DNA of 64,000 nt from Apostichopus japonicus (lineage: Eukaryota; Echinodermata; Holothuroidea; Aspidochirotida; Stichopodidae). The stretch spans positions 29,258,398-29,322,397 of the forward strand of contig NC_092577.1 in assembly GCF_037975245.1 (NCBI RefSeq), given 5' to 3'. The notes under the pieces are model-generated. The model searched no databases, had not been told where the DNA came from, and was given only the letters and a program-made list of their open reading frames with translations. The position numbers and the translations under genes were made by a program. Positions 27,101 to 53,900 of the stretch are shown here, piece by piece (within the stretch, counting starts at the first letter, position 1; each line of letters begins with the position of its first letter).

Positions 27101-30100
27101 TGTTACGAAGCGAAATTCCTCATTTCTGAATCGGCAGACACATTCCTTTAATCTCGGTCTTTGTAAGTCTCTTGCAAAGGACCTGCGAAAAAATGTATAA
27201 AAAAAAGGAAAATGCACACACAGGGACAGAAAACAAACTGTCTTCAATTATGAAGGATGTGATGTGACGACTTGTTTTATCCGACTTCGGTTCACATCAT
27301 GCTTGAAAAAAAAAAAAAGGGTTTTAATTCCGTCTCTCCTTCTTCCTCAATTTGCAGCCGGAGGGATGTGGAAAAGCGATCAGAGCGGAGCGAGCGTCAG
27401 CCGTTCCTTCACGTGTCGCATGCAGATTAAATGCGAGGACTCGAACAACGGCATCAACCAGGAGACTAGGTACGAAAACATGAAATGTTCGGCCATGCTG
27501 AAACCAGCCACGGAGAAAGATGGCGAATCTTCCTCGTCGGCAGAAGGAGGTAAGGAAGAGTCTGGCGGGTGGGGGGATGGGAGGGGGTTTGCATGTTAAA
27601 GTCTTGTGGTAATAACCTTGGCTTTGGTCTCATGGGATGTTTCTTCTCAGCAAGGCGTGAATGGTGTCAAAACTGTGTCTGCCACTGACCTGGGGGGTGG
27701 GGGAAGGGGGTTCAAGCCTCCATAGGTATAAGATGAAATAGAATATGAGTGGGAAACGCATGTGAGCGGTATTTCTGGGATGTTTCTTCCTCATACGAGG
27801 TATGAATCGTGTTGTCTGCCCTCTGACTGGGGTGTTCAAGCCTCGATAGGTATAATGAATTAGAATATGAGTGGGAAACGCATTTGAGCGGTGTTTCTGA
27901 GCTAACTGTCAGGGCAGCAGGTAAATTATTTCGGCAAATTCATGATACATCCAAAGCTTACTTAAAACTTCTTCACTACCTTGTAAATAAACATGTACGG
28001 CTTGGGAAACATTCTCCATGATGCTTTCAAGGAGTCTTACTTTGAAATTTTGTTCAAAATTAACGTCAAAATCCCCCTTTCTGTTGGTAGTAACCACCTG
28101 ATGGCGGTGGGGAAGGGGGGGGGGGTTGAGGTAATTTTTTGGTGATTTTGTGTCATTTTTATTTTTTATTAAAAAATGTCATTTTCAGAGGGGACTTCAC
28201 ATCTATATATCATTGCTCAGAGAGCATCTGACGAGGACAGAAGCAGTAGCATGTTACCGTCCATCGAGGAGATGGGGATGGAGCTGGACGTCAACTGCTG
28301 CATCCTGTCTGTAGATACCAGTAAAGTGAAACCGCCTTACCACAGTAGAGAAGAAATGATTTCACAACCAATCTACAAATACTGTTTTTCGTCAGATCGC
28401 ATCGAGATGAGAAAATATTTTGATGAAGGTAACAATATCATTTTCATGTCTGTGAGAAACCCCCCCTGCCCCTTCCCCCTTCCTCCCTCCTACCCACCCT
28501 TTTTATGAAAAAAGAACATAAATCTTAATAAATCATTGCTTCATCATTAGGCCATGTTCTTATCAAGGAATCTATAGAGAGAGAATGTGACATGTTATTT
28601 GGTGCCAGACCCCTTTCCCCATGGTCTCCTACCCCCCTCCTTAAATTGGTTCCTCCCTCCCCCCTCCTCTGCCTACAATATTTTCACTGTTGCCTTTGTG
28701 CTGAATTGTTCTCATTAACTAGCATTTTTCATCATTACTTTTCAGTTAAAGAGAAAGGCTCGGCCAATAGTCCCCCCTATAGTTTTCAACTTTTCCCGGA
28801 ATTATGGGTTTATGTCCAGATGAAAAGTCACATTCAGAAAAATTCCATCAACGGACAGACAGAAATAGTAGTCGTACATACAATTATAAGGTTAGTAGTA
28901 GCAGTGCATTCAGTTATAAGGTTTGTAGTAGCAGTGCATTCAGTTATAAGGCTTAAAGTAGCAAAGGTTTATAGTAGCAGTGCATTCAGTTATAAGGTTT
29001 AAAGTAGCAAAGGTATATAGTAGCAGTGTGGTCAGTTAGAAGGTTTGTAGTAGCAGTGCATTCAGTTATAAGGTTTAAAGTAGCAAAGGTTTATAGTAGC
29101 AGTGCATTCAGTTATAAGGTTTAAAGTAGCAAAGGTATATAGTAGCAGTGTGGTCAGTTAGAAGGTTTGTAGTAGCAGTGCATTCAGTTATAAGGTTTAA
29201 AGTAGCAAAGGTTTATAGTAGCAGTGCATTTAGTTATAAGGTTTAAAGTAGCAAAGGTATATAGTAGCAGTGTGGTCAGTTAGAAGGTTTGTAGTAGCAG
29301 TGCATTCAGTTATAAGGTTTAAAGTAGCAAAGGTTTATAGTAGCAGTGCATTTAGTTATAAGATTTAAAGTAGCAAAGGTGTATAGTAGCAGTGTGGTCA
29401 GTTATAAGGTTTGTAGTAGCAGTGCATTCAGTTATAAGGTTTAAAGTAGCAAAGGTTTATAGTAGCAGTGCATTCAGTTATAAGGTTTAAAGTAGCAAAG
29501 GTTTATAGTAGCAGTGCATTCAGTTATAAGGTTTAAAGTAGCAAAGGTTTATAGTAGCAGTGCATTTAGTTATAAGGTTTAAAGTAGCAAAGGTATATAG
29601 TAGCAGTGCATTCAGTTATAAGGTTTGTAGTAGCAGTGCATTCAGTTATAAGGTTTAAAGTAGCAAAGGTTTATAGTAGCAGTGCATTTAGTTATAAGAT
29701 TTAAAGTAGCAAAGGTGTATAGTAGCAGTGTGGTCAGTTATAACGTTTGTAGTAGCAGTGCATTCAGTTATAAGGTATAAAGTAGCAAAGGTTTAGAGTA
29801 GCAGTGCATTCAGTTATAAGGTTTAAAGTAGCAAAGGTATATAGTAGCAGTGTGGTCAGTTATAAGGTTTGTAGTAGCAGTGCATTCAGTTATAAGGTTT
29901 AAAGTAGCAAAGGTTTATAGTAGCAGTGCATTTAGTTACAAGGTTTTGTAGCAGCAGTGCATTCTGTAAAAAGTTTTGAAGTAGCAGTGCATTCTGTTAT
30001 AAGGCTTTTAGTAGCAGTACATTCAATAATAAGGTTTTGAAGAAGCAATGCATTTGATTAGGTTTGTACTAGCAGTGCATTCTGTTATGAGGTTTAAAGT

Positions 30101-33100
30101 AGCAAAGGTTTTGTAGCAGCAGTGCATTCTGTAAAAAGTTTTGAAGTAGCAGTGCATTCTGTTATGAGGCTTTTAGTAGCAGTACATTCAATAATAAGGT
30201 TTTGAAGAAGCAATGCATTTGATACTAATTTTGTACTAGCAGTGCATTCTGTTATGAGGTTTAAAGTAGCAAAGGTTTAGTAGCAGTGCATTCAGTTATA
30301 AGGCTTAAAGTAGCAAAGGTTTATAGTAGCAGTGCATTCATTTATTAGGTTTGATACTGTTCAATAATAATGTGGATAGTAGCAATGCATTCATTCCCTG
30401 TTGCGCTGTTTCCATTTTTACAGAGACGCAGAACTTTCAAAGAAGTTAAAATCACCACCCAGCACAAGCAGCCAAGCTACTACGACTCCAACTTCAAGAG
30501 TTTTAGAAGCCCTGTCCAACATGAAGCCTGGTTTACACACGTCGACTGTAAACCAACTGACGCGTATCATGATGCAGAGATCCAAACAGAAACAACAACA
30601 TCAACATCAACAACAACAACAGCAGCAGCATCAACAGCAGCAACAACAACAACAACAACAAGGTCTAGGGTACGGTGCTAATAGCATGAACATGCACCCT
30701 CAGGACCGGCTCATGCCCATCCATCAAGGTGGTGGTGGGATGATGCTAGCAGGTACCCCGCCTCTACCTGACAGGACTAATTTTCAAGGAATGAATACTT
30801 TTGGTCAGGTGCCCAACGCATCCAATGCTAACATTGTCAGCCAAGTGGTTGGCGGTGCCCCCATGCCAAATCTCGAACCGTCCACGTTAACTCACATGCC
30901 GTCGTCGTCCGGCCACGGTAGGCCGGGGGTCGAGCTGGACGACAACGACGTGTTTTTACCGAATCTCAAGTCCCAAGATCCATCCAAGCTACAGCACGAG
31001 GATGGGAAAGACAAACGGAAGTCGGTGGACAATCCGAGCCCGGACACGAACGACGAAACCGACAATGAATTCTTGAGGCGGAATATTCTTCTGTCAAAGT
31101 TACTCGAAGATGAAGAGACCAACAGTAAGTTCATTGTCTTGTCAAACTCAAGAGAGAGAGGGATAAATAAATGTTTAGAAATTAATGGAAAATTGATTTT
31201 TTAACTTGGAAAAGAACTTGCACAATTTGCAACACCCTTGATAATTTTTGAAAGTTTTACACACTTGCTGTAGCTTGAGCAAAGAATCTCCAAGCATGTG
31301 TTTTTTTCATCCTTTGCTTCTTCCGTCTGACTGACCTACTGACCGAGGTAATGTTTCTGCTGTCTGGTTCGTGTCGTTCAAATTTTTATCAATGAAAGGC
31401 CAGAGGGAGAGAAAAGGTCAGAAAGATCAATAGGCCATTAAAATGTCAAAGTCTGACACTAGAGAAGTGCATAATATACCACTACAAACTTTGTGACTAC
31501 AAGTAGTTGGTATTTAAATATATCAAGAGACTCGGGATTGAATTTTATAAACCTAAAAGATTGTTTTTTTTAAAGAATGTGTCCTATTTTCCTCCCAAAG
31601 AAAACGTTTCCATGTTTTCAATTATTTTCCTTCCAGTCGACAACCTCGATGATGAGATCGTCAAAGGTTCGCCGCCTACCACGTCAGCAGCTAGTACCAC
31701 GGTCCACGCCAAACACCAGTCATCTAAACCCCCGCCAGTCCATCGCAAAGACGTCCTCGACAACACCCTCCTGAAGACCATGCTCGAGGAGGAACAGATT
31801 CGCCAGCATCAGGTCGCGGAGGTCAATCCTAAGAAACTAGAACAGTCGGAGAGGGAGCGAGCTACCTCCAAGAGCACCCTCCTGGCGTCCATGCTGGACG
31901 GAGACCCGTCCAAGATGTTCGGCTCCGGTAAGCTCCCCAAGGAGCAGCCGGGATTCATCAGCAGTACCATCGTCTCCACGACGACAGCGCTCCGAAACCG
32001 CAGCGACTCTCTGGAAGACCGGAAGGGAGATGGAGAAAAGAAGGAAGGCGGCCCGAAAAAGACAAAGAAGAAAAACGAACTACTGGAGAGATTACTCAGG
32101 GAGGAGGACCCCTGTTCATCTAGTGACCAGGTACGTCACCCTTGACCCGGGTCAAAGGTCTGATTCAGAGGTCAGTCGACCTGAGCTGGATAAGTAGATG
32201 CTCCTTTTAAGGAATAGTCCGTAGTCCCTTTTACAGGCATGAGCTTTTTCTGCGAATTTGCGGAATATCCGTGATTTCTTTTCTACCTTGGGGACAAAAA
32301 CTATTATCCTAACACACTGTAGCATACGCAAACTGGAACCTATACCGCACTTTTTGCAAAGTTCCATGATTTTCTTTTACCCCAGGCTCATCCCTGCTTT
32401 TATAATTTATCGATAACCTGGAGAAAAAGAAGCAGCTATAATAAGCATATACCCTGATTTTCAGTTACAGGGAATACGACATTTAAAAAGTGTCCCAATT
32501 CTCCCAACATTCTTTAGTGGTCAATTGTAGTAGTGATGTCATATAGTGACCAGATAATAATATATATATATATATGTGTGTGTGCTTCATGGTGATCAGT
32601 TTTGGAAAGTTCCTCCCAGAATTGTCATAACTGGGGGGGGGGCATTCTGGGACAATGCCCCCCTCCCCCAATTTTGATTATGCCTCCCTCGCCCAGAATT
32701 TTGATTCATCTTTAGGGTTTCAGTAATGGACCTCCCAATGGTGGATCCATCCAAATGGCCCACTCAAACAAAAATTCTGCCCCTCCAAACAAACACTCTC
32801 TGCTCCTTTAAATTTGACTACTGGCTGACGTCATGCTGGTTTAAAGCTTGTATTGTTCGAGTTATATCGCTCATCTTCAATACAGAAATAAACCACATGA
32901 AGGAACGAGCAGAAGATGATGACCATCTCAAAATATATGTATAGGTTATTGACTGGCTTTTAACATTTTTTCATGTTTCTGTATCAAGTCCATTATTATA
33001 GATAGTACTATCTATGTATATGTGTGTGTATTGGAGCGACATATACTTGGTCCGAAATACTATCAAACTGTGATGGCTTGGAAAGGGCTGTAGATGTGAT

Positions 33101-36100
33101 CACACTGTTGTTACCCGTCTTTTGCAATATTTTTGACAACCACATCCTTGCAGCTAAATATTTATGAATTATATTCAAAGCTATTTTCTCTTAGCCTGTA
33201 AATAAATATAAGAGGCAAAACAGTTTTAGTGTAGTGTTGTTGAGTATGAAAAGAGTTATTGACAGGGGGGGCAAAACGAAAAGCACTCTGAACTTTGTTG
33301 TTCTTAGATGTACTTGCTTCTAGGTGGAAGCGAAAGATCACTGAGGTCGTCAACAGTCATAAAGAAAATGGAAGGAAAAAAAAAGCTTTGTAAACAAGCT
33401 AAATCAACATGTATGACTTCTGTCATGATGAGTTCTTGGTTGCTGTTGTTTTAATGGAGGTCAAAGGTCATATGATGATGTTGTTTTTGGTACGCAGCTC
33501 ACTCGGAAACATGTTAAGAAGTAAGTTTGTTGTACGTCACAACAGATAGCAAAGAAACATGAGATAGTGTGAAGTTGATGTAACTAGTGGTTCGGTGTAA
33601 AGTGCTTCTCCACCATTCAGGAGAGAGTGTTGGCTATAATGTGTTGAACTAATTTCTATTTATGTTGAATGTTGAACTGATTTTGTTGAATGTTGAACTA
33701 ATTCAACATGCAACATTTTTGAATGTTGAACTAATTTGAACTAATGTTCTACTAATTTGTTTTACCCATCTCCTCTAGAACCAAAATTTGAAGAAGTCCC
33801 AAGACAAGTCGGAGGGTTCGCCCAACAAAGATACAACCACTAGTCCAACGGTGACCACCACCAAGCCCCGCCTCTCAAGCAACCAGACCGACTTCTCCAG
33901 CATGCTCGATGACGATTCCAGTCTCCTCTCAGACGAGGAGAGCAACAGCGTTATACAACAGATCATCCAGGCAGCCAGCAACTTCCCCGATGACCTAGGA
34001 GCTAACAATCCAAACCTCATCGTAGATATCCTGAAAGAATTTGAAAACTCCACCAACGTGGTCGAGAGGGAATTCGTGAAGCAGATCCTGTCCCCGGAAC
34101 AACAGCTCTCAAATCAAATGAAGGCCCAGGGTAACCTACCTCCTTACAAGGACCAAATGGATCAACAACAACAACAACATCAACAACAGCAACAACAGCA
34201 GCAACAACAACACCAACAGCAACAACAGCAGCAACAACAACATTTTACCAACCTAAACCAGGCTGCTGCTGCTCCCCGTGGTAGCAATTCGCAGGGAACG
34301 TCGTACACGAATGACAACACCAACATGAACTTCAGGCAAATGGGAATGGGTATACCCGCCAACAGCCCTATGAACACTGGAACAACGGGTACATTTAACA
34401 ATTTGCCGGGGCCTCCGAGTATGTTGCAAGGTCTGATGCCTGGTAACCCAAGTCAGACCATGAATAAAGCACCGCAGTTTGTACCTAATCCAGAGAGCAT
34501 GTATCGTCCGGGCCAGAATATGCCAGTGTCTACCCAAGCGGATAAAATGAAGGTAACGACGGACGTATGTTAAGTCTGTGGTCTGTGTGTCGTGATTAGT
34601 GGTAGAATGGTTAAGCGAATCCCATCTTATCCTGTCGTTGTTGTGTACTTTCAGAGAATATTGCGGCCACGATATACCTCGTTAAGATCATGATTTGTTA
34701 TCCTTAATCGAAATACGGCAATTTTAAAATTTGTCGGACACTGATAGTCTATGATTATAAGTTTTGACGAGAATCCCTCGACAATTTTGTCTGCGATATT
34801 TCAAAGGTTTTATGCCGGTTTGACTTAAAACTTCATTTGTTAAAATTCAAAACCCTATATGTGGTATGTCCGTCCTTTTAATGCATAGCTCTTGGAAGTG
34901 TGTCTGGATTGTCGGAGGTCAGACATGCGTAAATACCCTAAAAGCTATCGATTTTTCTTTCCTCACTTTTTAGGAAAAGACAGTAGGAAACGGTGGTCTA
35001 GGGAACGAAGATTCGGAAGAATTTATTCAACAGCTGGAGCAGGTGCTCAGCAGCGGAGAATTGGACATGAGTCTGCCTCGGTCTTCATCTACTCCATCCT
35101 CCCAGGATAACTTTAGCAACCTCTGGAACAACAAACAGGCACCTGCTGTACCTTCCTCTGCTCAGCCCACGAATATACCATCTCAGAGCATGCCGACCAA
35201 TAGTTACACCCAAGGTGTGCCCGTCGCAGCCGGTGGCGGTAAACCGATGGGGCAGGTCATGGGCCACCCTGCTTCGGTCGGTAACCAGCAAGTCATGCCG
35301 GACGGCAACGCCATGCAGATGCCCAACAGTGGTATGGTGTCCTCCACGATGATGCCTGGCATGGGACAACCAAGGTTCCAGACTACTCCAGGGGGTAACC
35401 CCAGGCCAGGGTACCCTTCCAGTATGCCCTTGTCAAACCAGATGCAATCCATGATGCCCATGCAGGGAACTGGCCATCCTCCAGACACCATGACCAGGCA
35501 ACCGAATAGCCAACTCAAGAATGCTCTCATGAAGAAACAGGTCAGGAGCCCCCTACATGTTTATTCACTTAAATCCCAATTCATCTGTCTATCCACCTGT
35601 TCAATGATTCAGTTATGTCCCCTTAGCGGTGCACACATCCATCCATCTGTCCACCCTTTGGATGATTCAGTTATGTCCCCATAGCAATTCACCCATACAT
35701 CAGTTTGTCCACCCTTTGGATGATTCAGTTATGACCCTATGGCAATGCACCCTTCTGTCCATCTGTCCACTCTTTGGATGATTCAGTTATGTCCCCATAG
35801 CAATGCACACATCCATCCATCTGTCCACCCTTTGGATGATTCAGTTATGTCTCCATAGCAATGCACCCATCCATCCATCTGTCCACCTTTGGATGATTCA
35901 GTTATGTCCCCATAGCAATGAACCCATCCATCCATCCATCTGTCCACTCTTTGGAGGATTCAGTTATGTCCCCATAGCAATGCACCTATATATCCATCTG
36001 TCCACCCTTTCGATGATTCAGTTATGTCCCCATAGCAATGTACCCATCCATCCATCTGTCCACCCTTTGGATGATTCAGTTATGTCCCCATAGCAATGCA

Positions 36101-39100
36101 CCCATACATCAATCTGTCCACCCTTTCGATGATTCAGTTATGTCCCAATAGCAATGTACCCATCCATCCATCTGTCCACCCTTTGGATGATTCAGTTATG
36201 TCCCCATAGCAATGCACCCATACATCAATCTGTCCACCCTTTCGATGATTCAGTTATGTCCCCATAGCAATGTACCCATCCATCCATCTGTCCACCCTTT
36301 GGATGATTCAGTTATGTCCCCATAGCAATGCACCCATCCATCCATCTGTCCACCCTTTGGATGATTTCAGTCGTACAACCAACCATAGCAATGCACCCAT
36401 CCATCTTTCCAGCCATTGAATGATTCAGTTGTATAATCATAGCAAACTCCCAGCTCAACCGTTTTCTCGTTCCCTCAGCAGCAACAAAGATGGCAAGAAC
36501 AGCATAGACAGCAACAGCAACAGCAGCAACAACAACAGATGTTACAACAACAGCGATTGATGCAACAGCAACAACAGCAGAAGAATCTGATGATGTTGCA
36601 ACAGAAGCAACAGCAGCAGACATTCACAGGGCCCCAGGTAAGAAGAGATTAGAATCATCGGTATAGGAGCTAGCTGTGTGCAGACAGCTGGCTGTTCCAT
36701 AATTTAAATGGGTACACTGCATTCAAAGGGAAAGCTAAGGTTCAAACATCTAAAACCTAACATGATGATAACTTACCTTGATTCGATATTCACGCCATAG
36801 AAGTGAGGTTTCTGCCTCGGTGATAGTGAACTGCCTCTGCCTCGGGGTAGTGTTTCAAAAGTCTTAAAGAGTGTCATGCGGTGACAAGTTGGTGTGTGAA
36901 GGATACAGTTTGGAGTGGTTGTAGCTGATTTGTTTTGCCTTGTTTTCTTCAGATGGATGGACAGATGTTTAGCAACGTCGATAGTCAGGCATACCCTCCC
37001 ACCAAACTTGGAGAAATGTTGAATCCATCCTCAAACATGGCTGCCCCTAATGTCAGTATACAGGTAAATGGCAATAGATTCCAAAAACGATACTAGCTAT
37101 ATCAAAAAAAACCTGCAGTGTGCTTACTGTGGAAGTGTTACATTTTGGATGTGGGGTGGTGGTTACGAGTGGTTCTAAGTTTTCTAAAGAAAATTCTCTA
37201 CAACTGTTCCGTCACGTTCCTTGATAACAATCGCAGAAATTTCTCACGTACGTTACAGTCCGTGCGTTTTTTTAATTCTTTTTTTAATTAATTAACTAAG
37301 ATACTTAAATTCAACTTACCAGTCCAGGGAGACTATGTCAGTACTGGTGCCACTACTCCTGTAAATGAAAGTATTGTAATATTTGGCATCCATGTCATCA
37401 TTCATAAATCAATATATTACGAATAAATATTACGAATGCTTACAGAATATCATCATCAACAGCTTATTTTGTATCATATGTTTATAGTTATGTATATAAC
37501 TACACTATTTTAAATATAAACATACTTACATATATATTTATATATATATATATATGTACATATAATATATATATTTTCCAACAGGGTATTAATTTAAAAA
37601 AATAATTCACACAAATTTTCAGACCTCCTGGTCCTTCAGGTGCAAAGAAAGCAACAGGCAAACAGCTGTTTCTAGGTAATACTGAAACCCCAAATCTATA
37701 TATATCTACCATTGAAATCGTAGTGAGTTGAAAAATCTAGAACAGTGCAAAAACTTCCAGCCTCCACCGGGATTCAAACCCGGGCCTTCCGCTTTATATG
37801 CGGACACCCTAACCACTAGGCTATGGACGCATTGTCCATATATATCTGTTTATATATATATATATATATCTGTATATATATTTATATACAGATAGATAGA
37901 ATAGATAGATAGATAGGACACAATGCTATATATTCAAAATTGTTGTTATCTCTGCACATTTTCATTACATGACATTTTTAGGAGCGAAGTAACCAATGAT
38001 CTTTTCTCTGTTTTCTTTCTTTTCTCTCCTCTTCCTCAAACAGAAAGCAAACATACCATATAGCAACCAGATGGGCAATTTCCCAAACCATCCAATGCAG
38101 CCAGGTGGTTCTATGGGCCCACGGCCCATGCACCACGGAATGCAACAGCAGTTTCCTCAAGGAGCACCATCGGCACGCCCCAGTCCTGACTACGGCCATC
38201 AGTTTGGCCAAATGATGCCCCAGAACCGATCCATGCCGAGTGCTTATCAGGGATCCGTGCCCCAACACAACATGCACATGCCAGGTTTCCACGGTCCTGA
38301 TTTCAGTGGCGGCATGACACCAGGAGGGAGCATGGGGCCGGCCGGTAACATGAATGCCCTCTCTGGCATGATGCATAACCCGAACCGGATGGCACAGATG
38401 GGCAACCAACACCCGGGTATGGGCATGAACCCAGCTATGGGTGGTACCGGCATGCCCCAGACGACAGCCATGAACCCGAACCTCAGACCCAATATGCGGC
38501 CGGGTGTCAGCATGGGTTCCCGAATGGCAAACCCACCTCTGAACCGGAGTATGAGCATGCCCCAGTCGACGATGAACCCGTATCAGATGCAGAACTCTCA
38601 GAACTTTGCCAACTTTGCACCCAACAACCCAAATATGGCGATCCGTCCCACGGGAGGAGGCATGGGGGGCATTTCCCGGCAGGCCAGTATGCCGGACGCA
38701 ATGAACGCTAACATGTGGAACGGCGGCTCGACGGGAAACGTGCCAGGTCCGTACAACACCGCGGTCGCCACATCTGCTTCCTCTATGGCCGCCAATCAAT
38801 TTGGGAACACCGGGGGAGGCATGGAATTTCAGAATATGATGCAGAGAGGCGGGATGCCAGGCCAGATGGGACATGTAAGCCATTACAATGTTCTATTCAT
38901 GTAGTACTTCATTGATGTGTTGGTAGTTCTTCGTTAATAAGATGTTTATTATTTCTGTTCGTTGCAACCATCCAGTCAGGCTTACGTCTTACTGTCTATT
39001 CTCTCTGTCTTTCAGTCCACTATGGGAAACAACCCCAACATGGCAGCCGTCAATATGCAGCCCCCAAACCAGCAAGGGGGATTCCCAGGTGGTCAGGGGA

Positions 39101-40768
39101 ATCCCCAGCAAACTGCTAGTACCACCACCAATAACTCAGGAACGTCGTATCCGACCTCTGGTAGCGGTGTGACTGCTGGAATGATGCAGCAGCACGGAGG
39201 GAATTCAGAACTGGACAAGATGATGAACTTTGGTGAGTGAGGTGCACAGTATTTACAGCAGCATTATGTTTAACAGTATTAGCAGCAGCATTAATGTTAA
39301 CAGTATTAGCAGTAGCATTAATGTTAACAAAGCTGTAGTTTAGTGAGGGGTGGTATTGATGTCATCATAAAAACACTCAAAAGATTTCAAACCGACTCGA
39401 GTATTTATCGATTCAGTCAAATAACACACGCATCAAAAAACACTCGAAAAATTTGAAACCGACTCGATTATTTATGGATTCCGTCGAATACAGACACATA
39501 TTCTTAGATCGCTATTCATTGCACGACCGACTGAAATGAATGCTAAAACTTGACATGACGCATTTGCGACTTCTCTGTCGTCAGATTTCAACAAGCCGGA
39601 CGGTATGATGGGTCAGAACCCAGCGATGCCACCTCAAGCCGGCATCCCCGATACTAGCGGTAATGCTAGACGTATGCAGATGAACAACACACAGAATCGT
39701 GTTCATAAGGAGGCTAAAGCAAGATTCCAGGTAAGCATCGTCCAGGGTGGTGGCGCTATTTCTAAAGAACCGTGTGTGTGTACTATAACCACGACGACAC
39801 GTAATCTGTCACTGCTGTTACTGAAGTCAGACCAAGACGAAAAATGCCAATAAAATAGTAACATATTATATTTAAATTGTGCCCCCCCCCCTCCCCACAC
39901 AACTGTTTATATTGAATTAAAAATAATCATTTGGTAATAGTTAATATTGAACTTCTTTAATAAGGTGCAACCAAATAATGAGAGCCACAGAGACTAATCC
40001 GATATTCAATTCTGTCTTGGTCGAAATTGACACAGAGTAAGGAACCATCACCAAATACAGCTTTATGTGGTATGATGTGTGAATGTTACATGGCTGGATC
40101 AGAGAATTACTTGAAGATATTTTACTGCAGTTTTTTTATATATATTACCCACTTCATACCCGATTATTACCCACTTCATTAAACCTATTTGTTAAATTCC
40201 TTTTTTCTGACCCTACAACAGAAATTTTGCAAGTACTCAGACGCAAAGGAGGCCCCGGATGCTTCCACGAGAGTAGCGAATTTGTTCCGAAATCAGCTTA
40301 TCGGCATGGCCCCAAACTTACCAACCAATGACGTTGGTGTGCCGTCAACCTTCCTAGCCACTCCTGGCAGTAATCAACAGAGGGTACCCCAAGAAAATAT
40401 GGACCAGGTAAAAAGATAAGAAAGAAATAAAATGGATGCTTTAGTCAGTTTAATTTGACAAGATTTTAAGGCATTATCAAGCATGGTTCTTTTGTGTGTT
40501 AGATTGAAATCTTTGTTGAACACCATTCCCACCCGTTCACTTGCTCTGTTCCGGTGTTTGCTAGCATTTTTACATAGCAACCCTAAATGAAGTGGAAACA
40601 TATGCCAGTGTCCAAACTTGCTGGACAGTCATCTTTCTAGCTTCTCTGGCCTCATGGTTTCTCTTTGGTAATGTCTCTGTGTTTTGTATTACTTTCTAGA
40701 GCGGTGGTGATAGTCAGGATGACGGGAATAAACACAGTCTGTTACAGAAGCTGTTATCGTCTACGTAA
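16111..40768 (+). CDS. NCOA: p160/SRC-family nuclear receptor coactivator (NCOA1-3-like), 19 coding exons
   Basis: Steroid receptor coactivators bind ligand-loaded nuclear receptors through LXXLL boxes and recruit CBP/p300 and methyltransferases in the nucleus. Exons I can phase: 16111-16196, 16489-16658, 21037-21134, 24184-24282, 25687-25777, 27358-27549, 28189-28428, 28746-28890, 30424-31124, 31637-32130, 33779-34552, 34974-35540, 36479-36637, 36953-37063, 38044-38874, 39016-39232, 39585-39730, 40222-40407 and 40700-40768. They sum to 5,376 nt, or 1,791 residues, and all junction phases agree. Domain order is bHLH (about 18-85), PAS-A (about 119-200), PAS-B (about 290-373), NR-box region (590-765), polyQ blocks, a long Met/Pro/Gly/Asn/Gln region and a terminal LXXLL. 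The protein is longer than the roughly 1,400 residues usual in vertebrates, the excess being low-complexity sequence. Family identity is very secure; the choice among paralogues is meaningless if this animal has only one. Unannotated small or alternative exons are possible. Confidence 0.95.
19300..19706 (-). mobile_element. tRNA-derived SINE, copy 2, with 5' block and a second tail
   Basis: Read on the minus strand: a tail fragment (CACTGTTCTGGATTTTCCAA, 19661-19706), about 240 bp of conserved block (19421-19663), then the tRNA-like head with A box TAGCCTAGTGGTTAGGG and B box GGTTCGAATCC (about 19350-19421), then body and tail ending TTTTCAATT at 19300 and a (TA)n run. The same block-head-tail order occurs in copy 4, so it is a real composite unit. 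Lies in NCOA intron 2, antisense. Confidence 0.85.
19707..19752. repeat. (TA)n microsatellite
   Basis: About 22 TA dinucleotides directly joined to the second SINE tail fragment of copy 2. A shorter TA run (19276-19300) lies at the other end of the element. Confidence 0.9.
20040..20712 (+). repeat. CT-rich tract containing a tandem duplication of about 220 bp
   Basis: Polypyrimidine sequence in NCOA intron 2. The stretch with TTTATAATTC, CTCTACCTTGTATTCCTC and TGTGTCTTTTCTACTGCTTT around 20270-20340 repeats around 20480-20540 and continues similarly. The long Leu/Ser/Pro open frames across it in all three forward frames are composition artefacts. Confidence 0.8.
21955..22045 (+). repeat. Short dispersed-repeat-like element with GCGCTT inverted words
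   Basis: AATAATAATAGTAATAAATT leads into TATATAGCGCTTAATACAGC and CAAAGCGCTTTACAAGG. The AGCGCTT/AAGCGCT inverted words after an (AAT)n lead are a pattern I associate with short repeats common in marine invertebrate genomes. No boundaries or target duplication could be set. Confidence 0.4.
24184..28890 (+). CDS. NCOA: NCOA exons 4-8: PAS-A and PAS-B
   Basis: Exon 4 opens TLDGFLFVVN and exon 5 contains IYNFIHVGDH, both diagnostic of p160 PAS-A. Exon 6 has SRSFTCRMQIK and YENMKCSAML, matching the stretch between the PAS folds. Exon 7 begins the second PAS (HLYIIAQRAS, then LSVDTSKVKPPYHSREEMI, and KYCFSSDRIEMRKYFDE). Exon 8 closes it with YSFQLFPELWVYVQMKS and VVVHTIIR. PAS-B of this family also contacts other transcription factors. 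The exon 8 donor (AAG then GTTAGT, 28890/28891) is the start of a minisatellite. Confidence 0.93.
24468..24885. repeat. Inverted repeat, arms about 64 and 70 bp, in NCOA intron 4
   Basis: The left arm (24468-24531) begins GGTTGTATGGCAAGATGCCT; the right arm (24816-24885), read on the minus strand, begins GGTTGTATGGCAAGATGCTT. Both continue through TGTACCAC, GCAGTGGTAAAAT, TTCAGATT and ACTATGTA. The loop is about 284 bp. The arms differ mainly by a 6-base length change near the middle. A transcript would fold into a long hairpin. It may be a foldback element, but no target duplication was found. Confidence 0.8.
28891..30345 (+). repeat. Minisatellite starting at the NCOA exon 8 donor
   Basis: About 1.45 kb of units of 20-46 bp built from AGTAGCAGTGCATTCAGTTA plus TAAGGTTTAAAGTAGCAAAG and TTTGTAGTAG. 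The first unit is the splice junction itself: exon ...CAATTATAAG joined to GTTAGTAGTAGCAG, against repeat ...CAGTTATAAGGTTTGTAGTAGCAG. The array fills nearly all of the intron between exons 8 and 9 and stops about 80 bp before the exon 9 acceptor. Later units (from about 29930) are more diverged and include TTTTGAAGTAGC variants. Confidence 0.92.
30424..32130 (+). CDS. NCOA: NCOA exons 9-10: receptor-interaction (NR box) region with polyQ
   Basis: Exon 9 has a Ser/Thr-rich linker, a glutamine/histidine run (about residues 429-453), then an acidic/basic stretch ending NILLSKLLEDEE with LSKLL at 597-601. Exon 10 holds LKTML (653-657), a third core reading LASML, and LERLL (757-761) in KNELLERLLREEDPC just before its end. 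Vertebrate p160 proteins have three LXXLL boxes here; this gene shows two canonical boxes and two LXXML variants. Each is preceded by a polar residue and followed by Asp/Glu, so they look like copies of one module. Confidence 0.9.
33640..33765 (+). repeat. Short repeats of GAATGTTGAACTAATT
   Basis: Four or five imperfect copies of TTGAATGTTGAACTAATTT in the last 140 bp of NCOA intron 10, stopping about 15 bp before the exon 11 acceptor. They do not include the polypyrimidine tract. Confidence 0.75.
33779..35540 (+). CDS. NCOA: NCOA exons 11-12: acidic segment, polyQ, candidate CBP/p300-binding helix
   Basis: Exon 11 starts with an S/T-rich part, then FSSMLDDDSSLLSDEE and an amphipathic stretch with LIVDILKEFE (about 853-862), followed by a Gln/His block at about 901-926. 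Exon 12 opens with NEDSEEFIQQLEQVLSSGEL (about 1041-1060), whose spacing of leucines and acids resembles the AD1 helix that binds CBP/p300. That assignment is inference. The rest of exon 12 is Met/Pro/Gly/Gln-rich and disordered in appearance. Confidence 0.88.
35580..36440 (+). repeat. Minisatellite of about 60 bp filling NCOA intron 12
   Basis: About fourteen copies of CATCCATCCATCTGTCCACC followed by CTTTGGATGATTCAGTTATG and TCCCCATAGCAATGCACC, with few substitutions. The array occupies the intron from about 40 bp after the exon 12 donor to about 38 bp before the exon 13 acceptor. Each unit contains GATTCAG, an acceptor-like word, but with a poor pyrimidine tract. Confidence 0.92.
36479..40407 (+). 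CDS. NCOA: NCOA exons 13-18: Gln-rich and Met/Pro/Gly/Asn-rich activation region
   Basis: Exon 13 (53 residues) is more than half glutamine. Exon 14 contains KLGEMLNPSSNM. Exon 15 (277 residues) is a run of Met, Pro, Gly, Asn and Ser with many GM, NM and PM pairs. Exons 16-18 continue it and end with a less biased part: VHKEAKARFQ, then KFCKYSDAKEAPDASTRVAN and LFRNQLIGMAP. This corresponds in position to the C-terminal Gln-rich and AD2 regions of p160 proteins. All internal phases match (0 except 1 at the exon 16/17 junction). Confidence 0.88.
37500..37920. repeat. AT microsatellites flanking SINE copy 3
   Basis: TA-rich runs at about 37530-37575 and 37838-37880, followed by a short GATA run (37890-37915), bracket the SINE in NCOA intron 14. 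Confidence 0.85.
37706..37835 (-). mobile_element. tRNA-derived SINE, copy 3
   Basis: On the minus strand the head starts GCGTCCATAGCCTAGTGGTT and ends near CCCGGTGGAGGC, followed by TGGAAGTTTTTGCACTGTTC and a CAACTCACTACGATTTCAAT tail. The T stem pairs, with TTTGAAT in its loop; the anticodon stem CCGC/GCGG encloses ATATAAA; the acceptor arms GCGTCCA and TGGAGGC pair with one mismatch. The cloverleaf is thus nearly intact. The ~240-bp 5' block of copies 2 and 4 is absent. Confidence 0.85.
39245..39490 (+). repeat. Two short tandem duplications in NCOA intron 16
   Basis: First, about 35-bp units with AACAGTATTAGCAGCAGCAT and TAATGTTAAC (39262-39330, 2-3 copies). Second, a unit of about 75 bp with AAACACTC, AAACCGACTCGA and TATTTAT...GATTC (39370-39490, two copies). 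Confidence 0.75.
40700..40768 (+). CDS. NCOA: NCOA last coding exon with C-terminal LXXLL
   Basis: A 23-codon exon after the acceptor TTTCTAG encodes SGGDSQDDGNKHSLLQKLLSST and then TAA. LQKLL falls at residues 1784-1788, seven residues from the end counting its first Leu with the tail. Vertebrate SRC-1a has an extra NR box in the same place, ending in LLQQLL plus a few residues. The exon is short, but its phase, acceptor and motif agree. Confidence 0.85.
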   Translation, partial: SGGDSQDDGNKHSLLQKLLSST

Positions 40769-47920: not shown

Positions 47921-50900
47921 CTGACATTAAAAGAACGAGAAAACAAACAAATATTTATGTTGACTGATCAAAATGACTGGTGTTCTATTTTAAAGACGTA
48001 TTTCTGCCGGATGGGGATAGGTGTGTTGGGGAGGAGGAGGGTAAAATTTATTTATTTCTTTGACTTTGGTTTGCCATTTTGTGCTCGAATTTTAGGTAAT
48101 ACAACTCCCCCCCCCACCCCTGCTGTGGACTGTACATTTTGATGGCTACCGTCCCTTGTAACCCATTCTGCTTCATGGCAATACCTAATAAAAGTTTATG
48201 GTTGATTTCATCCATTGTGACAGACGGCAAAAAAGGAACCTATATGAAAGGATCACTTCTCACCCTTACTCAACAAATAAATCCTGATCTTTCTCAGTGA
48301 TAAAATTTCCCCACAACCCCCATCCTATTCATGTAAATAACCCACCTTCTACTCAGTCCCAGCCTCGCCACACCCAATTAACCCACTTTAACTCTCTCCC
48401 AGCCTCTCCACAGAAATATCCTACCTACACCTCTCTCCTACCAGCCTCTCTACAGTAAAAACCCACCTCCACCTCTCTCCTAGCATCTCCACAGGTATAA
48501 CCCACGTCCACCTCTCTCCTAGCCTCTCCACAGGAATAACCCACCTCCACCTCTCTCCTAGCCACTCCACAGGAATAACCCACCTCCACCTCTCTCCTAG
48601 CCACTCAACAGGAATAACCCCACCTCTCTCCTGGCCTCTCCACATGAATAAACCCACCTCCACCTCTCTCCTAGCCTCTCCACATGAATAAACCCACCTC
48701 TCTCCTAGCCTCTCCACTGGAATAACTCACCTTCTCTGGACTTTCATCGGTGCTCCTTTGACTGACGTCTTCATCGAAGCTCCGCCTGTTGCACCTCTCA
48801 AGGTTCGGATGCTCTCGATGGTTTTCTCGCACCCGGGGAAATCATCTTTGCGTGCTTCCAGGTACCTCAAAACGTAATCATCAGCATCCATGATTTTGAA
48901 GCGATGGCTAAAGACTTGAATCCTGGCGCCGATGTACAGATCTTGCGGTCCGTAAAATTGCGGGTGCTCTGGTGTGGAGGTAGGTTTGGTCACCCTGGTT
49001 CGCTCTAAGAATTTACCGCTGACATTACCAGAGTTACGCACGGGAGGCTCAAAAATTGTGATCATGTCGTCGGCTAGGCGGTAGCTGATGATGAATCGGC
49101 GCCCTCTGTCTTCGGGCTTTACGGAATCCTACCATCGAGGAGAATAAACAGTATGAATATTTGCTAGATTTTTCAAAGCAGATATTTAGATATCCAACCT
49201 ATGCTGTTACTAAAACAGTCACAGGAGAAGAAAAAATAGGGTATTTATAACTGATTGGTAGGGACAATGGCAATAGTCTGAGATACAAAATACAATATTT
49301 TTCTTCTTTTCACACTATGAAACTCTTAGCTTCCAGGAATAGAAATTATTAAAAACTGTTCGCATTGCTCACCATTTCTGCTTCAAATCGAAGAATTTTA
49401 TGGTCGTTCTCAAGCATTTTGATGAAGTCTTTCTTTGGTGGTTGTGGGACCAGTGATAAGCAGGACTGAAGGGAATCTTCCAAAGATCCAAACCCATTGT
49501 ATGGGGGTAGGTCAGTCTAAACACACACAAAAACAAACAATAAAGCATTATTAATGAGGGGAAAAAAACAATGAGTTGACATGAAACACTGTTAATGAGT
49601 TATAATGCTATTTAACTAGTCTATAGTAAATTTGTTAGTTTGTTGGAGTGATGTCATAACAGATGTCTTTTTTAACATATTGCTTTATTAATGTAGTCAA
49701 CATGTTTTAGTTAACATGACCATACAACAATGGACATACAACAGTATTTTCACTATGTACCATGAAACAATGTTAATGAGCTATAATGCTATTTAACTAA
49801 TCTATAGTAAATTTGTTAGTTTGTTGGAGTGATGTCATAACAGATGTCTTTCTTACATATTGCAATATTAATGTAGTCAACATGTTTTAGTTAACATGAC
49901 CATACAACAATGGACATAAAACAATTGACATACAACAGTATTTTCACTATGTACCATTAAACAATGTAAATGAGTTATACTTCTATTTAACTTATCTATA
50001 GTAAATTTGTTAGTTTGTTGGAATGGTGTAATAACAGATGTCTTACTTAATATATTACTATATTAATGTAGCCTACATGTTTCAGAATTAACATGACCAT
50101 ACAACAATGGACATAAAACAATGGACATACAACAGTATTTTCACTATGTACCAGTTTCATCATCTGATGCTATTTTCTGGCTAACTTGTCAGTCCCTTGC
50201 AAGCAGAGGAAACTTGTTAGCATCATCACATGACCTACAATAAACTCTTGCTAAACCTACCTTGTTGGCTCCATTCCTGTCCTGTCTTTTAACATCCAGC
50301 GGTGTGAAGTCCTTGATACCAAATTTTTGATACAGATACGAGCGGGTAAATTCGTCGCAGTCGTAGATCAAGAAATGGCGGTGGTAGATGACGACCGTCT
50401 CGCCGATCATGAAATCCTTTGGAGCAAACCACTCCTTGATTTCATTATTTGAGAGTTCCATGACAACGGATGGGAAAGATGCTAAACAGATGAGAAAGAG
50501 ACAAAACATTACAAAAGTATAGTCTTGCTATCTATAGATTACAGATTGCAGACTACAGATTGCAGACTATAGATTGCAGACTACAGATTAATGACTACAG
50601 ATTAATGACTACAGATTAATGACTACAGATTAATGACTACAGTTTACAGAGTACTGACTATAGATTGTAGATTACTGACTATAGATTACTGACTACAGAT
50701 TACTGACTACAGCTTGCAGACTACAGATTACTGACTACAGATTACTAATTAAAGAGTACAGACTACAGATTACTGCATACAGTTTACAGAGTACTGACTA
50801 TAGATTACAGATTACTGACTACAGATTACTGACTACAGATTAATGACTACAGATTGCAGACTACAGATTGCAGACTACAGTTTACAGAGTACTGACTATA

Positions 50901-53900
50901 GTTTGTAGATTACTGACTATAGATTACTGATTACAGATTACTGACTACAGCTAGCAGACTACAGATTACTGACTACAGACTACAGAATACTGACTAGAGA
51001 TTACTGACTACAGATTACAGAGTACTATTTCAGGGTTCTCATCATTCCTCTCTTTCTTCCTTTTTTTAGTGTCATCCATGAAACATTGTTGCCAGGGGAC
51101 TTAACACTTACATTCAACATCGATTCTGTTCTTTGGTAATATGTATCTGAACAGTTTCATTCAACATTGTTACTGTTCTATGGTTATCTGTATCTGAACA
51201 CTTACGTTCAACATTGTTTCTGTTCTATTGTAATCTGTATCTGGACAGTTTCATTCAAACCTGTTTCTGCTCATTGGTAATCTGTATCTGAACACTTACA
51301 ATAAACATTGTTCCTGTCTTTTGGTAATCTGTATCTGAACAGTTTCAGTCAACATTGTTTCTGTTCTATGGTAATCTGTACATAAACACTTACATTCAAC
51401 ATTGTTTCTGTTCTATGGTAATCTGTATCTGAACACTTACATTCAACATTGTTTCTGTTCTGTGGTTATCTGTATCTGAACAGTTTCATTCAACATTGTT
51501 TCTGTTCTATGGTAATCTGTATCTGAACGCCTACATTATTCAACATTGTTTCTGTTCTATGATAATCTGTATCTGAACACTTACATTCAACATTGTTCCT
51601 GTTCTATGGTTATCTGTATCTGAACACTTACATTCAACATTGTTTCCGTTCTATGGTTATCTGTATCTGAACACTTACAATAAACATTGTTTCTGTTCTT
51701 TGGTAATATGTATCTGAACAGTTTCATTCAACATTGTTTCTGTTCTATGGTAATCTGTATCTGAACACTTACATTCAACACTGATTCTGTTCTATGGTAA
51801 TCTGTATCTGAACACTTACATTCAACATTGTTTCTGTTCTATGGTAGTCTGTATCTGAACACTTACATTCAACATTGTTCCTGTCTTTCGGTAATCTCTG
51901 TCTTCTAAGGAATATTGGGAAGGGATCCCTGCCATCGTTTGGCTCATGGCATTCACAGATCTCCACTGTATCGTCTACCAAGTAATACTGGATGATGTAT
52001 GGTCTTAATTCACCAAACATGTTGTTCCTATCGTCCCAGATACAGTAGAATCTAAGAACCTGGTAAATTAAGTTGAAATGGATTAAACTTTACAAACACT
52101 GTCAAAACCATGAACTGCTGAACCACTAGCTGATATGAGGTAGGGGGGGGGCAGGGCGGGGTGAAGCATAGAGTGGAGGGTAGCAGAGATGAAGGACAAT
52201 CAAATTCCAAAGATCACTGAATATTGTCAAGATATATATACGATGATCCATAGCATAATTGTGGTTTAGGTTACAAAACCATTTCAGTTCCAACGAGAGG
52301 ATCTTTGGTTCTCACCTGTCGGTCTAATTCAATAAACTGCTTGAGTTTATCAAAGTCCGATGGCGTCTTGAACTCCTTCAAAGCTGCCTTCTGTTTACGA
52401 GATTCGATGTACGGATCGGGAGGAATCGTTGACGGAGAACTCAACTCGATGCCCTCACTGGCCATAAATTCCTGAAAGGGAGGATACACCAAAGAGTTAA
52501 TCAAATCATGCAAGGATATTCAACAAACCAATGAAATTCCAGAAAGGATATATTTATATTTCAATTATATATATATATATTCATTTGCCTTTGTCATTTA
52601 CCTTCATTTCATTAACTAAGTCTGTTCAAAGTATCTCTTTCGAGATCCGGCTTTAGGAATCACAAATGATTTTGAGTTAGTTAGCATCATGTTTGATCTC
52701 TAGAGTAAGGCAAAATATGTCACCAAAAACAGAACTAGTATTGTTCGATACAGGTGACGAACCCCTACAGTGGAATTATGACCTTTCTTATCGGTTTCGT
52801 ACCTCTGGACATACAATCAGCGTCCATAGCCTAGTGGTTAGGGTGTCTGCTTACAGGGGCGGCGATCTGTTTCAAATATTGGGGGGGACATTTGCTTGGG
52901 TGCAGGCGAATTACTATCAAAGCGGAGCGCCACCATTGGTTGGCGCGCAGCGTACAAGAAAAATTCTGGTTTTGATAGCCCCCCAGATCACCGGAAATGG
53001 CACTTCTCGGGCTTGAAAATGGCGAACCAAATGTACACTTTTGCCTGAGAACCAAGTTTTTTTTTCATTTATAACCTTTTTTCAAGATTGTCACCAGTCA
53101 CACATCATGTTCGACCTCATTGCATCTCCTGTGGATCATTGCTTTTGTAGGTAATTCTACGTAACGCCCCACAATACCCGTCAGCCCCAATTTTCAAGGT
53201 ATTAAGCCCATTATTTGTTCAGAATTTGAATAATAAATTCACTTCAAAACATATCCATAATGTTGCAAAAAATTCTATCTATGGACAACCAATATAAAAA
53301 AAAAACCTCAACCCCTAACAGACCGGTCAAAATTGAACGAGTAGAGGGAAATATGATGAAGAATGTTGGTCAAGGAATTTTCGAAAATTCAGACACAGTT
53401 AAATTATTGGTGTACAAATATTAAAACCTCTTATAACGGCTACTATCAAACTTAGATATCATAGAAAATACCCCAAAAATATGCTTGAGGAGGAGGGGCA
53501 GTTTCCACCCTTCGCCCCCCCTCCCTTGGCTACGCACCTGCGGTTAGAAATCTTGTAGGAAACAGGGCAAATGGAAACCCAGTGAATCCATATCGATGTG
53601 GATCATATATATGATTGTACGTACTGACACTCATACACAAGAGTCAAACCAAATTTCATTACGGATGCGGTCCGTCTAGCAATTCATTTCGAAAAAAAAA
53701 GAAGTAAAAACTACTTTCGGTCATATAGTAACAAATTGTGACACGGTTAGACAGGCACCTTGCGAGGAATTTGCCAAGGGAGGGGCAAAGCTTGTACCCA
53801 GACTTTCTAAGCGTAGCGCAACCATAAGTTGGCGCGAAGCGCAAAAGAAAATTTTGGCCGAAAATGCCTCCCAGATCAATGGAAATGGCACTTCCCAGGC

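Follow-up and report, generated by a model that had tools for sequence, protein, structure and literature searches.

The gene EFHC1 lies on the minus strand of the window, a stretch of 64,000 nucleotides of Apostichopus japonicus DNA, and the exon considered here (52059-51867) is the fourth EFHC1 coding exon located, by eye and by script. The best match of the protein is a sea urchin chain (252 bits, with the next-best EFHC1 chain at 199 bits). This ranking speaks against an amphioxus origin of the DNA, as do the mitochondrial COX1 of the assembly (contig C35), open when translated with the echinoderm code (code 9), and a single exact match for one A. japonicus cyclin A primer (PMC6721757). 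Joining the exon to the one that follows (50481-50261) leaves the reading frame open, and the 23 residues across the junction align without gaps to the sea urchin EFHC1-like rib74 (PDB 8snb). On the minus strand the 3' end of the exon is AACAATGTTGAAT, with GTAAGTG next; the exon closes with ...GACAGGAACAATGTTGAAT and the intron opens with GTAAGTGTTCAGATACAG, which places the junction at GAAT/GTAAGTG and the GT of the donor at 51866. The intron is 1385 nt long and carries TTTAG at its 3' end (50482). About 90% of it is taken up by two tandem arrays, one with a 47-bp and one with a 14-bp unit. The features of this part of the gene are as follows.

51867-52059, minus strand: EFHC1 coding exon; its terminal 34-37 nt on the 3' side recur in the array (boundaries called, protein aligned to 8snb)
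51860-51866, minus strand: authentic splice donor GTAAGTG; the exon ends in AAT and the intron is in phase 1, as determined by joining to the exon at 50481
51103-51897, minus strand: minisatellite across the exon-intron boundary, overlapping the exon end, with 16 units after the authentic donor (Tandem Repeats Finder, alignment)
51105-51819, minus strand: ten intact GTAAGTG copies, the G of GT falling at 51819, 51772, 51678, 51631, 51584, 51440, 51393, 51299, 51205 and 51111
51534, minus strand: weaker donor-like GTAGGCG within the array
50540-51018, no strand assigned: second tandem array of the same intron, with a 14-bp unit (7-bp sub-unit) in 34.7 copies (Tandem Repeats Finder)
50261-50481, minus strand: next EFHC1 exon, with acceptor TTTAG before 50481 and donor GTAGGT after 50261

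Tandem Repeats Finder assigns the array at 51103-51897 a period of 47, 16.9 copies and 86% matches. The units stand head to tail in the intron, and each consists of the last 34-37 nt of the exon plus the donor. Unit length is 47 nt in all but one of the 16 units, the remaining one measuring 50 nt. Across the 17 donor-equivalent positions, the authentic donor included, the sequence is GTAAGTG in 11, GAAACTG in five and GTAGGCG in one, and several of the inner donors are the same as the authentic donor over AATGTAAGTG, ten bases that surround the splice point. Mean pairwise identity among the 15 units of equal length is 0.875. When identity is followed by lag, from one to eight units, it stays between 0.866 and 0.896 and no lag is strongly distinct. 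The unit nearest to the exon sequence is unit 12, which matches it at 29 of 34 positions.

The unit consensus can be aligned with the last 37 nt of the exon, and at its best place the array agrees with the exon at 30 of 33 nt (score 51). Dinucleotide shuffling of the exon, done 2000 times, gave scores of up to 40, and 193-nt pieces drawn at random from the window (2925 in all) reached 31 at most. A search of the 671.6-Mb genome with a 27-nt probe from the core of the unit, allowing up to two mismatches, gives 11 matches, all of them within the EFHC1 array; the array is thus a local product, and an origin as a dispersed repeat is ruled out. As judged from these alignments, the unit is derived from the exon end and its donor. 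The exon end is likewise the ancestral side of the pair, taken as the older one because conservation of the protein with that of sea urchin runs through the junction. The first-pass annotation had described a unit built from exon end and donor in transcript orientation, repeated about sixteen times into the intron and presenting a ladder of intact donors in the pre-mRNA. The 16 units counted after the authentic donor and the 10 of 16 copies that keep GTAAGTG bear this out, and the alignment of exon end to units that it called for gave a match above shuffled and random sequence alike. Its estimate of about 48 bp per unit has to be corrected to the lengths given above.

The EFHC1 array is not a one-off, and exon-edge arrays recur in the A. 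japonicus genome. Called exon edges lying inside tandem arrays were surveyed at 30 dynein and 30 kinesin loci, using the matches that fall inside the 30 loci of each class (59 of 81 for dynein, 44 of 126 for kinesin); three matches within the sampled loci (one dynein and two kinesin, all on contig C21) were omitted from the survey, and none of the listed arrays overlaps any of the three. A simple script that weights donor positions made the splice-site calls, some of which have poor scores. One dynein exon (a match on contig C23 with both edges flagged) was excluded for its uncertain boundaries, which changes the dynein count from 9/118 to 7/116. With this exclusion, arrays span 8 of the 204 sampled edges, seven of 116 in dyneins and one of 88 in kinesins; five of the spanned edges are acceptors and three are donors. 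The corresponding figure for EFHC1 is 1 of 14 edges, which as the discovery case is not an independent sample. The copied splice sites, by contig, are given below.

C1: dynein acceptor copies, 39-bp unit, shown in register
C19: dynein acceptor copies, 82-bp unit, shown in register
C23: dynein acceptor copies, 58-bp unit, shown in register
C21: dynein acceptor copies, 120-bp unit, shown in register
C16: kinesin acceptor copies, 168-bp unit in two copies, shown in register
C14: dynein donor copies, 76-bp and 57-bp units, shown in register
C8: dynein donor copies, 63-bp unit, weak donor call (0.2)
48336-48732 of the window, minus strand: 39-bp array that begins at the splice donor of the later EFHC1 exon 49128-48731, with the GT of that donor at 48730; a candidate second case in this gene, excluded from the survey count

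According to Tandem Repeats Finder, this last array overlaps its EFHC1 exon by 2 nt only; its copies read GTGGGTT and the authentic donor at 48730 reads GTGAGTT. In the N-terminal part of the C23 dynein match, a piece of exon is apparently duplicated as a 110-bp repeat of 1.9 copies with uncertain boundaries. None of the 29 alternative sites in the dynein and kinesin arrays, with acceptors judged in the reading frame of the downstream exon, would give an in-frame, stop-free extension, an absence that is no evidence of selection because stops are common by chance at short unit lengths.

Whether arrays sit at exon edges more often than expected depends on the placement model. Of 218 edges belonging to 109 exons, EFHC1 included, nine are spanned, and nine of the 36 arrays of at least 100 nt span an edge. 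Free random rotation of the arrays predicts 20.0 spanned edges (P(<=9) = 0.0015), more than observed, since arrays are excluded from exons. Placement restricted to introns, with at most 45 nt of an array in exons, predicts 4.69 (P(>=9) = 0.036), and the excess over this model is confined to the dyneins (P = 0.0095 for dynein alone, P = 0.82 for kinesin alone). This excess may point to a cause other than chance, although the rotation model is opposite in sign.

Arrays of this kind have a counterpart in amphioxus, where minisatellites spanning an exon-intron boundary, termed mirages, have been described in Adh3, TnC and globin genes, with regular splicing reported (PMC3087553, PMC3902484); the second of these added the cases in TnC and PGBD5 (PMC3902484). 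As in the amphioxus mirages, the tandem copies of the EFHC1 boundary lie in the intron: the unit spans the exon-intron boundary, and the copies stand beside the authentic boundary with the donor often intact. Amphioxus mirages reportedly occur at donors or at acceptors and some of their copies keep GT or AG, as is also seen among the A. japonicus arrays; the 47-nt EFHC1 unit lies within the 10-72 bp given for the Adh3 mirage, while its 16 copies compare with three to six in the globin gene BflGb6, one of two globin genes (with BflGb9) to carry mirages beside the duplications in PGBD5. Length polymorphism and mRNA are known for some amphioxus mirages, whereas the EFHC1 array is known from the sequence of one haplotype. 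The hosts differ as well, echinoderm for the EFHC1, dynein and kinesin arrays and cephalochordates for the mirages of those two reports, though this concerns the place of description and is not a structural criterion. Tandem copying of splice signals is a likeness to a route of intron gain in which genomic segments that bear splice sites are duplicated in tandem, as reportedly took place in the potato RdRp gene; unlike in that case, no new intron is evident in EFHC1 and the copies lie inside an existing one. A search of the open-licence literature found no exon-edge minisatellite in an echinoderm, which is weak evidence of novelty, and as far as searched the mirage is new for EFHC1 and, within that literature, for echinoderms.

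We therefore favor, with a probability of roughly 0.85, the reading of the EFHC1 array as a mirage-type minisatellite that tandem duplication at the exon edge produced as a neutral side effect. A short stretch straddling the exon end and the donor would have been duplicated in tandem and expanded on the intron side, with slippage or unequal exchange as the presumed mechanism. The real exon edge would then be the outermost copy, kept by coding constraint, and the intronic inner copies would be able to drift and to homogenise among themselves. The spliceosome most likely picks the first, exon-proximal donor, and transcripts made from inner donors would be expected to carry a premature stop and then be degraded. 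The array is probably neutral and, as we infer, without function. Two points speak against the mirage reading. One is the possible excess of arrays at exon edges over the intron-restricted model. The other lies in the donors: because several copies are identical to the real donor over all ten bases around the splice point, nothing in the inner donor sites explains their being ignored.

The coding outcome of these donors bears on two alternatives. The first-pass annotation had taken the repeat for a frame-preserving segment and proposed that downstream donors are used to add copies of it, making a length-variable protein. Ten intact GTAAGTG copies are available for such use, but a frame-preserving coding repeat has a length divisible by three and is open, and here the unit is 47 nt long and stops are present. 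When the 11 downstream donor-like sites were spliced in silico to the next exon, every one led to a premature stop: a single additional unit shifts the frame and a stop is met in the next exon, two units (94 nt) or more bring a TGA inside the insert, and three consensus units hold stops in every frame. In addition, the protein segment encoded by the exon end is conserved in the sea urchin relative. Since every downstream donor-like site tested yields a stop, the array makes no length-variable protein, and we give that idea next to no credence; the sequence of the present haplotype already contradicts it, and frame and stops rule it out. To go by the sequence, use of any copied donor should break the EFHC1 protein and not lengthen it. 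That same outcome, shared by all inner sites tested, would suit a regulated form of unproductive splicing, in which choice of an inner donor leads to a stop and decay and the ladder serves as a poison switch tuning EFHC1 level, and the intact donor hexamer in 10 of 16 copies is consistent with this. AT-rich intron sequence gives stops by chance anyway, however, and the GAAACTG change destroys the donor in five of the 16 copies, so that the donors are not evidently maintained; such a switch seems improbable.

Two further explanations concern how the array came to be there at all. The introns of the window and of the sampled genes are rich in minisatellites, and an array born inside the intron might resemble the exon end by accident or convergence. 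The alignment score beyond every shuffle and every random piece refutes this, and exon end, donor and their order stay in register among the copies, which leaves a chance resemblance with practically no probability. Tandem arrays are also prone to assembly error, and misassembly might have created or inflated this one, but the array is shorter than 1 kb, its units have diverged, and the published assembly was, according to its description, built from PacBio HiFi reads (PMC10344927), making an artefact very unlikely. The mirage-type origin by tandem duplication at the exon edge remains the preferred reading over all of these.

On that reading, the mirage phenomenon known from amphioxus genes would extend to an echinoderm, and the further arrays suggest that it is not rare there. 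EFHC1 donors identical over ten bases and 47 nt apart, beside one exon, offer a natural test of donor choice, in which the question is whether placement by itself, through exon definition or the distance from the acceptor upstream, is decisive. The array also illustrates that an apparent coding minisatellite needs a frame check before a role at the protein level is proposed. A broader and more speculative proposition, which we consider unlikely, is that exon-edge minisatellites are common genome-wide in A. japonicus (about 4% of sampled edges) and favor edges in some gene classes, giving a natural series of identical competing donors and acceptors, part of them used at a low level as a control by unproductive splicing and as a source from which introns are shifted or gained.

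Large arrays also occur elsewhere in the window, at 28866-30349 and 35604-36430, near plus-strand exons (30383-39731) of what we take to be a nuclear receptor coactivator-like gene, with LLxxLL-like motifs and glutamine-rich stretches. Elsewhere in the assembly, contig C29 (31219 bases) carries COX1 pieces with internal TGA in two places, one around 15-16 kb and one at 31 kb, and is perhaps a mitochondrial dimer or a misassembly kept as a separate contig.
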